Origin: Pseudobutyrivibrio sp.
Lineage (GTDB): Bacteria; Bacillota; Clostridia; Lachnospirales; Lachnospiraceae
DNA: 54,411 nucleotides
Reading direction: 5' to 3'
NCBI GenBank assembly: GCA_024697025.1
Contig: JAILGH010000108.1
Location: forward strand, 1 to 54,411
Each line of letters opens with the position of its first letter. The stretch's first letter is position 1. Below the pieces are notes generated by a model that searched no databases, had not been told where the DNA came from, and saw only the letters and a program-made list of their open reading frames with translations. The position numbers and the translations under genes are program-made. Shown piece by piece: positions 11,482 to 47,438 of the stretch.

Positions 11482-11518
11482 GTATATAGAATAAATATAG
11501 GGAATGCATTATTTAATG

Positions 11519-11558
11519 GACAATCGGTGGGGCAGACACTTGCCGGTTGTCTATTTTT
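11519..11558 (+). terminator. terminator between fba and glnN
   Basis: GACAATCGG (11519-11527) pairs with CCGGTTGTC (11543-11551) with one G-U, followed by TATTTTTA. It probably ends the fba transcript. A weak promoter-like pair upstream (TTGTAA at 11473, TATAGG at 11496) could place it in the glnN leader instead, where it would act as an attenuator. Confidence 0.65.
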
Positions 11559-11700
11559 ACTTTATAGGAAATTGCTTTGCAATCTCCTATAAAGTAAAAA
11601 ACACACTTCGTGTGAAAGATGTGTCTCGGCGACATAAGAAATTAATTGCTTACAGCAATTGTCGCCTCGCACTGCAGGAGTTTTGCGAAGCAAAACTCTT
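11554..11700. repeat. four-hairpin intergenic repeat, copy A
   Basis: About 147 bp with four consecutive hairpins, repeated at 30230-30379. Helix 1: ACTTTATAGGA (11559-11569) with TCCTATAAAGT (11585-11595), extended by T5/A5, capped by ATTGC-TTT-GCAAT. Helix 2: CACAC-TTC-GTGTG (11602-11614). Helix 3: GGCGAC (11628-11633) with GTCGCC (11661-11666), enclosing AATTGC-TTACA-GCAATT. Helix 4: GAGTTTTGC-GAA-GCAAAACTC (11678-11698). It lies between the fba terminator and glnN, ending about 30 bases before the glnN ribosome binding site. Differences from copy B preserve pairing. Confidence 0.9.
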
Positions 11701-11747
11701 TCTTATATATCTTACGGTTTATAAACCTACGGAAAGGATATTTGAAA

Positions 11748-30195: not shown

Positions 30196-30209
30196 ATATA
30201 TAAACCCAA

Positions 30210-30235
30210 AGCACGGCATGGGCCGTGCTTTTTTT
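30210..30235 (+). terminator. terminator after thrH
   Basis: Perfect 8-bp stem AGCACGGC (30210-30217) with GCCGTGCT (30222-30229), then a run of seven T. The T-run merges into the structured repeat that follows. Confidence 0.93.
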
Positions 30236-30379
30236 GCCTTATAGGAAATTGCTTTGCAATCTCCTATAAGGTAAAAAACACACTTCGTGTGAAATATGTG
30301 TCTCGGCGACAGAAGAATTTATTTGCTTACAGCAAATGTCGCCTCGCACTGCTGGAGTTTTGCGTAGCAAAACTCTTTC
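30230..30379. repeat. four-hairpin intergenic repeat, copy B
   Basis: Second copy of the element at 11554-11700, same orientation. Helix 1: GCCTTATAGGA (30236-30246) with TCCTATAAGGT (30262-30272). Helix 2: CACAC-TTC-GTGTG (30279-30291). Helix 3: GGCGAC (30305-30310) with GTCGCC (30338-30343), enclosing ATTTGC-TTACA-GCAAAT. Helix 4: GAGTTTTGC-GTA-GCAAAACTC (30355-30375). It fills the gap between thrH and the convergent GGDEF gene and stops right at that gene's stop codon. Pairing is conserved despite base changes relative to copy A. Confidence 0.9.
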
Positions 30380-32044
30380 TTACACATCTAAAGGTTCTTC
30401 CTGGGGGAAGTATACCTGATTTTTTCCATGCTGCTTTGAGTAGTAAAGGTTTTCGTCTGCCTGCTTTAATACATCCATATTTCCATGGCCTTTGGCTACA
30501 CCGACGCTGATTGTTATAGTAAGCTTAGAATCAAAATCCCAAAGTTGCATTTCAACAGCTTGACGTATTCGTTCAGCTAGAAAGCCTGCGCTTGATATTG
30601 CATTTTTACCAAGCAAAAATACTAGCTCTTCGCCGCCATATCTGTAGGCCTTTATATCTCCTCCTGCTTCGTGGGATAGTATGTTGCCAAGTCGCTGTAA
30701 AACCTTATCCCCTTCAGGATGGCCGTAGGTATCATTCACGTGTTTAAAATCATCTATATCAATCATGATGATTGCATATTCACTTAGAGAGTGCATCATT
30801 CTGGATAAATCCTTGTTAAAGGTCTTTCGTGTAAACAACATTGTTAATCCATCATATCTATTGTTAGCAATAATTATGATGAAGGTTGATATAACAGTTA
30901 GCAGTACAAGAATAGACAGAATGGCTAAACGAGTCCTTCTGGTGTTATTATTTTTTTCCTTAATGAATTCTTCCATTGTGGCTTTGGAATCATTTACTTG
31001 GCTGCCAATTATGCTGGCATATTTTACGTTTTGCTCATCAAACAAATGAGTATAAAGCTGATACATGTGACCATACATTAAGGCGTTTACTTCCATGTTG
31101 TCTGTTGGATATCTACTTTCAATGGTAAGCAATGTTCGCAGTGCACATTTTTCATAACCGGTTTCTTCACATAACTTTATAAAATCTTCCAGTACCGAAG
31201 ATGATGCATCTTTTCTATATATAACACTTTTATCTTCGGCTTGATAGTTCTGTGCCACATCTAAAAGACACTTGGTTTGGTAATAAGGGATAACCATGTC
31301 TCTAAGCATTATTTCTCTGTAGGTTTCCATGGTGAAAAATGGGCTGTCTACATATTTATCTATTATGGCCTGAGCCTTGGCGTATTGCTCCTTTTCATAG
31401 TAGACTCTAGCAAGCCAAGTCTCGTTGATAGCATAGTAGGCACTAGCATATATTCCTTCCTTATCTTCATTTAGGAGTTCTTGAGAATAGTTAAGATACT
31501 CCTCAGCTTTGTCATAATCTCCATAATTTATAGCCATAATTCCAAGCATCCTAAAGGCATAGCTTTTGATTTGAATGCTTTGTATATCATGGAAATCCTC
31601 TACCTGCTGAGCCCGACTAGTCATCTCTCTGGCAGAATCATAGGCATAGTTATTAAGGTGAAAGTTTGCCAAATCAAGATAGATATTTACGGTGTAATCT
31701 TTTTCTGGGCTGCGCTCCAAGTAGTAGAGGGCATAGCCAAGGTATCTATAGTAGGTCATTTCTTCGCCCAGCTGCATATAGATTAGGCTGGCACGCTCAT
31801 AGAGACGACCTGCATCTTCGTTTTTAAAGTGGCCCTTGTCTAGCCATCGATTTATCTCAGCAACATCTCGCTCCAAACTATCAGAGGTAAAGCTTAAGTC
31901 CTCTGTCACGTATTTAATTACTTTCTCATGATTGGATTGTTTTTCAAAATAGATTTTTGCAGACATAATAGATTGCGCGATAATCAACGCAACTATTGTT
32001 AAAACTAGGCTTATAATCATTCGTTTTAAGAGTTTTTTAATCAT
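30380..32044 (-). CDS. membrane-bound GGDEF protein (probable diguanylate cyclase)
   Basis: Probably makes cyclic di-GMP from GTP. The 554-aa protein has an N-terminal membrane helix (about 8-30), an extracytoplasmic helical region of about 330 residues with TPR-like repeats (AEEYLNYSQELL, AKAQAIIDKY), a second helix (about 360-385), and a C-terminal GGDEF domain starting RYDGLTMLFTRKTF with the active-site variant RYGGEEL. No EAL domain. The frame opens at a TTG (32059), but that TTG lies inside the GAGGA ribosome site that serves ATG 32044. The extracellular signal is unknown. Confidence 0.92.
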   Translation of the reverse strand: MIKKLLKRMIISLVLTIVALIIAQSIMSAKIYFEKQSNHEKVIKYVTEDLSFTSDSLERDVAEINRWLDKGHFKNEDAGRLYERASLIYMQLGEEMTYYRYLGYALYYLERSPEKDYTVNIYLDLANFHLNNYAYDSAREMTSRAQQVEDFHDIQSIQIKSYAFRMLGIMAINYGDYDKAEEYLNYSQELLNEDKEGIYASAYYAINETWLARVYYEKEQYAKAQAIIDKYVDSPFFTMETYREIMLRDMVIPYYQTKCLLDVAQNYQAEDKSVIYRKDASSSVLEDFIKLCEETGYEKCALRTLLTIESRYPTDNMEVNALMYGHMYQLYTHLFDEQNVKYASIIGSQVNDSKATMEEFIKEKNNNTRRTRLAILSILVLLTVISTFIIIIANNRYDGLTMLFTRKTFNKDLSRMMHSLSEYAIIMIDIDDFKHVNDTYGHPEGDKVLQRLGNILSHEAGGDIKAYRYGGEELVFLLGKNAISSAGFLAERIRQAVEMQLWDFDSKLTITISVGVAKGHGNMDVLKQADENLYYSKQHGKNQVYFPQEEPLDV

Positions 32045-32193
32045 CCATAAAATCCTCAAAAACTAATGTCCCACAAATTTACAGCTAACATTATAAAAAA
32101 TAAATATGGAGAAATTTTGATTTGGAAATTTTAGTAAGAAGTTAAAAATGATAAAAAAGGTGTATTTTTGATATAAAAACCCTTCTTTTTTCA

Positions 32194-37221: not shown

Positions 37222-37513
37222 GTATTCCTCAGACAAACACAAACTATAATTTATTCCCTATAAGTTATCTGCACCTTAGTTTCCTGATTTTGGAATGAAT
37301 CTAATGAAATAGAAAATGAGTTTTCATAGATATGGACAGACCGAGCCATGGACGGCGAGGTCAAGGAAAGTTGAACATGGATGTGAATCTTGACTGGTGT
37401 CCATATCTGAAAACTTATTTTTTTAATTTCACTTGATGAATGGAACATGAAGGAAACTAAAGTGCAGATAAATTATAAGGGAATCATTATAATCTCTATT
37501 GTCTGAGGAATAC
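37222..37513. mobile_element. 292-bp MITE-like palindromic element
   Basis: Perfect 15-bp terminal inverted repeats: GTATTCCTCAGACAA (37222-37236) and TTGTCTGAGGAATAC (37499-37513). Inside, the two arms stay complementary over almost the whole length: TTATCTGCACC with AGTGCAGATAA, TAGTTTCC with GGAAACTA, GAGTTTTCATAGATATGGACA with the complement of the right arm. There is no transposase or credible gene. It resembles a non-autonomous miniature transposable element; no clear target-site duplication is visible. It lies between the MCP terminator and the sigma-factor gene. Confidence 0.8.
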
Positions 37514-47100: not shown

Positions 47101-47438
47101 GTAAAATATAAAAAATTCCTCCGTTTCACTCTCGGAATTTTAAACGTCATACGGATTTCTTTAATTTTTCTTCGAAAAATTAATTATCCGCATGTCGTTT
47201 TATGCTCGAAATCAACTTGAGTTTTTTACAAGTAAAAACTCATAACTTGGTTTTTTTAATTTGGAAAAGTAAAATATAAAAAATTCCTCCGCTTCGCTCT
47301 CGGAATTTTAAACGTCATTCGGAATCATTTAATTTTTCGAAGAAAAATTAATCTTCCTCATGTCGTTTTATGTCCCAAGTTACCATGAGTTTTTTACTAG
47401 TAAAAACTCATGGTATACTTCGGACAATTATATTTTAC
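47101..47438. repeat. tandem 168-bp structured repeat with terminal inverted repeats
   Basis: Two direct copies (47101-47268 and 47269-47438), each starting GTAAAATATA. The outer ends form a perfect 10-bp inverted repeat: GTAAAATATA (47101-47110) with TATATTTTAC (47429-47438). Each copy contains an AAAATTCC/GGAATTTT hairpin, a TTAATTTTTC-3 nt-GAAAAATTAA hairpin inside a longer helix (CGTCAT...ATGTCG), and a GAGTTTTTTAC/GTAAAAACTC hairpin. The triloop is TTC in copy 1 and GAA in copy 2. No gene is present. It fills most of the gap between the TPR and histidine kinase genes. Confidence 0.85.

Follow-up and report, generated by a model that had tools for sequence, protein, structure and literature searches.

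A four-hairpin repeat placed behind intrinsic terminators in Pseudobutyrivibrio and its relatives: a probable non-autonomous mobile element

A non-coding repeat of about 146 bp occurs twice in a 54,411-nucleotide contig of Pseudobutyrivibrio sp. (the window, that is, the whole stretch of DNA that was analysed), and the two copies raise the question of what such a folded sequence is doing beside unrelated genes. Copy 1 lies between the genes for a class II fructose-bisphosphate aldolase (fba) and a type III glutamine synthetase (glnN), and copy 2 between a HAD hydrolase gene and a GGDEF gene. An earlier note had placed the copies at 11554-11700 and 30230-30379. Both proved to be real, and their ends were slightly shifted: the covariance-model matches are 11554-11704 and 30231-30381, and the moved units are 11559-11704 and 30236-30381, because the first five bases of the model match, a T-run, belong to the host terminator. 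The features are as follows.

11515-11558, + strand: host terminator behind fba, a stem-loop plus T-run (11554-11558) that is the target of copy 1; found by terminator scan, and element-free in 18 of 18 readable congeners by eye.
11559-11704, + strand: copy 1, moved unit; model match 11554-11704, with the left boundary taken from nested insertions.
11554-11600, + strand: H1, a long A+T-rich hairpin whose 5' arm starts inside the host T-run (folding, alignment).
11602-11614, + strand: H2, a short hairpin, CACAC/GTGTG here and CAAGC/GCTTG in other copies (alignment).
11621-11672, + strand: H3, composed of P3a (11621-11624/11669-11672), P3b (11628-11634/11660-11666) and P3c (11645-11650/11654-11659) (genus and family alignments).
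11677-11699, + strand: H4, the right-end hairpin, followed by a TTTCTT tail at 11699-11704 (alignment).
30208-30235, + strand: host terminator behind the HAD-hydrolase gene, with a T-run that is the target of copy 2 (terminator scan).
30236-30381, + strand: copy 2, of a second subfamily (model match 30231-30381).

The host T-run also pairs with the 3' arm of H1, and the bulge in H3 is present on the 5' side only. H4 with its T's resembles the target in layout (hairpin plus T's); it scored as terminator-like in copy 1 and not in copy 2. A scan of both copies detected no sigma-70-like promoter inside either of them. The last two bases of copy 2 belong to the stop codon of the convergent GGDEF gene (30380-32059, − strand; overlap 30380-30382), and the insertion may therefore have set the end of that gene.

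Both copies folded better than their dinucleotide shuffles (z = −6.55 and −5.47; none of 200 shuffles was as good). The compensatory changes reported earlier, T11561-A11593 to C30238-G30270 and A11645-T11659 to T30322-A30336, were confirmed, and the reported change to a G-U pair was located as A11559-T11595 to the G-T pair 30236/30272. In an alignment of 21 congeneric copies, 98.4% of 1041 helix cells pair, and two-sided changes were found in 17 of the 50 helix pairs; none of 500 shuffles reached 17, and slides of 1-3 columns gave 2-5. The family alignment comprises 42 copies, 34 of which come from other genera; 95.6% of its 1942 cells pair, and two-sided changes were seen in 43 of the 50 pairs, compared with 15-25 in slides, although this alignment was fitted to the structure and is biased in its favour. 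From genus to genus, the H1 and H4 arms vary yet remain complementary, and in G106 and G234 the loop of H4 contains natural inserts. The hairpins are thus kept by compensatory changes across many genera, and the claim that the folded structure is under selection holds in both alignments. This covariation proves a folded form; by itself it does not prove that the form is RNA.

A BLAST search with copy 1 found 19 full or partial places in its own genome (2.71 Mb, 110 contigs, 91% complete) at E ≤ 1e-12, copy 1 itself included, and the other places were 90-98% identical to it. Seven places, all among the 14 best-scoring, touch a contig end, so that some may be halves of one copy. Partial copies in this genome mostly keep the left end (L015, L017 and L019); one (L018) has only the right end. 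The earlier note had named a lack of further copies and of further covariation as the outcome that would speak against it; what was found is these 19 places and the 17 and 43 covarying pairs given above. Two subfamilies coexist, with copies 1 and 2 in different ones; ungapped identity in the own genome is 92-93% between the subfamilies and 96-99% within subfamily 1, values for L010 having been dropped as meaningless owing to an indel. A match to copy 1 was present in 18 of the 61 genomes searched. Copy 2 is identical over 146 bases to a copy at another site in genome G011, in which three copies are mutually identical, whereas the gene adjoining copy 2 is only 89% identical between the two genomes. 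The identity of the copies, set against this divergence of the gene, indicates recent movement, and the element has probably been transferred between species, to judge from these identities. Three copies in G288 differ by few bases (by eye). In G234, the left-end signature gave 70 strand matches, compared with 3 for the reversed pattern.

The placement of the copies was examined with a terminator test that required a stem net score of at least 6 and the end of the 3' arm within 3 nt of a T-run. Of 34 congeneric copies, 30 entered the test; of the remainder, three lacked a left end and one (L077) is the same place as L047. The start of the element lay directly behind the T-run of an intrinsic terminator in 27 of 30 congeneric copies (shuffled controls: mean 5.2, maximum 10) and in 61 of 69 family copies (mean 11.9, maximum 18); a few places are present twice, and 83 distinct stems remain. 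Some of the 11 failures among 99 copies (L038, L078 and L050 in the genus; L206, L207, L219, L222, L223, L143, L152 and L159 in the family) are imperfect terminators by eye. Measured from the end of a same-strand frame of at least 80 codons, the start lies within 104 bp for 11 of 13 copies in the own genome and at 281 and 399 bp for the other two.

Empty sites were sought in congeners. The fba-glnN comparison covered 20 pieces from 19 genomes, of which L091 and L103 (the sole piece from G008) miss the gap. All 18 readable congeners have the terminator and lack the element (by eye); the empty site typically reads TCTATTTCTATATATG, and the filled site reads TCTATTTTT-[element]-ATATATC. At the place of copy 2, the element was absent from 16 of 16 genomes fetched; only this absence is informative there, because the terminators differ between genomes. 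The fba-glnN terminator itself (GACAATCGG...GATTGTC, 11515-11558) is conserved in all 18 of these congeners, unlike the remainder of the gap, which varies (by eye), and it could also serve as a glnN attenuator.

The insertion point was defined by seven nested cases (L034/L082, L054, L011, L233, L234, L235 and L238), in each of which a newer copy lies directly behind the T-run and just ahead of the first base of an older one (by eye). A script for nested insertions returned seven rows, four of which are cases seen by eye; L038, L342 and L357 were rejected as host terminators or chance. The nested insertions fix the unit as N5-ATAGG...TTTSTT and exclude a long target duplication. Apart from possibly one or two T's, no duplication was seen, and a shorter one would be masked by the T-rich junctions. 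The element is dispersed, has been recently active and is inserted at one point directly behind the terminator T-run. The terminator placement, the empty sites and the nested newer copies indicate a mobile element and not a glnN regulator. The preference in the earlier note for a mobile element over a dedicated regulator is borne out by these results, whereas the glnN leader loses its value as a functional clue, since the copy lies behind the fba terminator just as other copies lie behind the terminators of other genes. No evidence was found for the RNA-processing element that had been offered as another possibility.

A covariance model (R1) built from the congeneric copies was scanned over 250 genomes of the family Lachnospiraceae. 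It matched 81 of them at E ≤ 0.01 and 49 at E ≤ 1e-8, with the same fold and a different sequence, and several of these genomes hold at least 10-12 places each. A second model matched 40 of 341 genomes of the class at E ≤ 0.001. Since no more than 12 places per genome were scored in the first scan and 9 in the second, copy numbers in both are lower bounds, and the weak matches may include chance A+T-rich hairpins. All but one (L143) of the 29 family loci inspected by eye were element-like, one of them (L165) with a poor terminator. Four of the 26 class loci inspected (L336, L341, L342 and L351) had no visible element, the inspection frame being shifted by contig ends. At several loci from other families of the class (L332-L335, L337, L338, L340, L343, L345 and L347-L349), inspection by eye showed the H1 head and a CTTTGTT-like tail with another body between them, which has a stem like GCCCGTGC...GCACATGGGC; these loci, too, often follow a terminator. 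These loci are probable, not proven, relatives and perhaps represent a second subtype.

A sequence pattern found the element in none of 398 genomes, but this pattern is too strict to be informative, since it misses even the window's own genome. Searches of plasmids with the window copy, a G155 copy and a G106 copy gave no match, nor did a search of phages with the window copy. The G155 copy matched nine records named 'Bacteriophage sp.'; L355-L362 (MT837746.1, MT835487.1 and others) come from one human faecal project. Two of the eight records fetched were searched for proteins: L355 carries EPSP synthase, and L362 carries BipA, asparagine synthase and DHDPS, all of them household genes. On the evidence of these two, the records look like mislabelled chromosomal contigs. 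Two strict patterns applied to viral contigs gave one match with one, a whole copy by eye, and none with the other.

The earlier statement that the repeat is not a known tRNA, rRNA or riboswitch was upheld: no Rfam 15 family reached its gathering score over the element, and relaxed E-values gave only matches far below gathering scores, so that a riboswitch, a tRNA or a known sRNA was rejected. No description of the element was found in the literature searched, outside which most subscription papers lay, and the mobile element is apparently undescribed.

We regard the repeat as a small, non-coding, non-autonomous mobile element that targets terminators and is recognised by its fold, and we give this reading a probability of roughly 0.6. 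On this view, an enzyme supplied in trans would recognise the hairpins in folded DNA, probably single-stranded, and would act 3' of a hairpin plus T-run. Because the same layout is found in the host terminator, which is both target and left junction, and in H4 with its T-rich tail at the right end, one enzyme could read all three; such an enzyme would explain the left junction, the right end and the target together. The known process most akin to it would be the single-strand (HUH) transposition of IS200/IS605 elements. An element that lands behind a terminator does not break genes and would be mostly untranscribed, and any effect on expression would be a side effect.

Whether the fold is read as DNA or as RNA was approached through G-U pairs. 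In the family alignment, these make up 43 of 1856 standard pairs (2.3%), a low share to be read with the caveats that the alignments favour paired columns and that young copies had little time to gain G-U. By helix, the counts are 9/609 in H1 (1/102 in its upper stem), 2/131 in H2, 14/146 in P3a, 3/244 in P3b, 3/229 in P3c and 11/395 in H4. At the same loci, the share was 8.5-10.8% (47/554 in 25 tRNAs and 95/880 in 83 terminator stems, the latter from a search permitting G-U). The genus alignment has a higher share, 49/1024, with 37 of these pairs in two columns. Compensation is thus almost purely Watson-Crick, which makes it more likely that the hairpins are read as DNA, by an enzyme acting in trans. 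G-U exceeds A-C in the family (43 vs 23; binomial p = 0.019, although the cells are interdependent) and in the genus (49 vs 6), while the two are nearly equal in H1 (9 and 8). This excess makes a folded + strand, as RNA or single-stranded DNA, likelier than a symmetric cruciform; it would also result from RNA.

A possible RNA form leads to the group IIC introns, for whose insertion behind terminators Robart et al. (2007) is reportedly cited. Class C introns insert directly behind intrinsic terminators without target duplication, a position argued to avoid gene breakage and transcription (PMC3522654). The present element shares both the site and the lack of duplication; it differs in its length of about 146 bp, too short to encode a reverse transcriptase, and in that some carriers have no RVT_1 gene. 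Rfam scans for the group II ribozyme core gave no match in element copies at gathering scores or at relaxed E-values. In a non-autonomous retroelement, or 'bacterial SINE', the read-through transcript would fold as RNA, and a group-IIC-like reverse transcriptase acting in trans would insert it into terminators. This would account for the intron-like site, and a single fold across many genera and the excess of G-U over A-C suit RNA. We nevertheless consider a retroelement rather unlikely, for the G-U share is low, RVT_1 is absent from 8 of 28 high-copy genomes and from G011, which holds identical copies, and the mostly left-end partial copies are the opposite of what truncated reverse transcription from an RNA 3' end would leave.

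Candidate genes for the enzyme that the fold-recognised mobile element would need were sought among carriers. RVT_1 was found in 15 of 29 congeners and 20 of 28 high-copy genomes, and the Y1 transposase in 10 of 29 and 19 of 28, respectively. Y1 was not found in the window's own genome (91% complete) and is absent from nine of the 28 high-copy genomes, including G283, which is a single contig and 100% complete. Four genomes (G139, G225, G232 and G288) have neither, so that between these two families there is none common to all carriers. Since each is missing from carriers, neither is required at present; loss after activity, assembly gaps or an undetected family are possible explanations. Sequence inspection of 40 regions with the H1 signature (330 bases each, from G234, G288, G106 and G155) recognised no autonomous form; what the regions contained was copies, intact or decayed, together with other sequence and some chance matches. 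In the own genome, contig C76 carries a 341-aa reverse transcriptase (RVT_1) beside a 334-aa protein (L130:1378-2403), a locus that is perhaps a retron or a defence system, although this is a guess. IS200-like Y1 elements were seen by eye behind terminator T-runs, a few bases further on, in congeners (L108, L109, L111 and L118) and at L175 and L193, and a preference for terminators may be general among single-strand transposons here.

An ends-only derivative of a true IS200/IS605 element (PATE), moved by a resident Y1 TnpA, overlaps the preferred reading and would name the enzyme; as a separate explanation it is about as doubtful as the retroelement. IS200/IS605 elements have hairpins near both ends and insert 3' of a short fixed sequence without duplication (PMC7290912). 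H1 and H4 near the ends of our element, its fixed insertion point and the lack of visible duplication beyond one or two T's correspond to this, and the Y1 elements behind T-runs in the four congeners and the presence of Y1 in 19 of the 28 high-copy genomes speak in the same direction. On the other hand, carriers without a Y1 gene exist, G283 and eight others among the high-copy genomes. The resident Y1 elements have other ends, as R1 gave one weak match (E = 0.024) in 62 Y1 and reverse-transcriptase loci. Moreover, the T-run lies within the H1 stem, and no guide was seen by eye 5' of H1 or H4.

A classical MITE of a DDE insertion sequence is much less probable than either. Its size, copy number and intergenic location would fit, and precedents exist in pneumococcus, whose BOX, RUP and SPRITE repeats are small, folded, intergenic and multi-copy, are found inserted in each other and are common near gene 3' ends; inverted repeats and duplications occur in BOX and RUP, which are almost absent outside S. 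pneumoniae and S. mitis, and SPRITE resembles a terminator (PMC3049150). Our element is likewise small, folded, multi-copy, intergenic and nested, but its ends are not inverted repeats (left RCYTTATAGG and right ...CTCTTTCTT, unrelated), no clear target duplication is visible, and one fold spanning many genera would be unexpected for ends-only remnants; it targets a terminator, whereas SPRITE resembles one. The bcr1 repeat of Bacillus cereus, also small, folded, multi-copy and intergenic, is of a comparable kind. Least probable of all is a 3'-UTR or leader RNA useful to the host in regulation, processing or mRNA stability, for which the strong conserved fold and the position of copy 1 upstream of glnN could be cited, since the sites are empty in 18/18 and 16/16 congeners, the genes around the two window copies are unrelated, and the element lies beyond the terminator and would hence be mostly untranscribed.

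If the mobile-element reading is correct, an apparently undescribed element, abundant in some genomes, is added to the rumen and gut Clostridia, and terminators would be a safe harbour for something besides a group II intron. The element would offer a case in which to examine if selection on covarying helices acts on DNA or on RNA, and it points to a candidate enzyme that reads hairpin plus T-run. We tentatively suggest, as a possibility, a class of gene-less mobile elements in Clostridia that propagate by fold alone: an undescribed enzyme, perhaps a protein of the host or a widely shared one, would read 'hairpin plus T-run' in DNA (or in the RNA of the element), so that every intrinsic terminator is a target and the right end of the element mimics one. 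The element also breaks assemblies, as seen from the own-genome copies at contig ends. Elsewhere in the window, Rfam matches placed two Clostridiales-1 RNAs in tandem at 47104-47435 (− strand) and a TwoAYGGAY RNA at 37289-37447 (+ strand).
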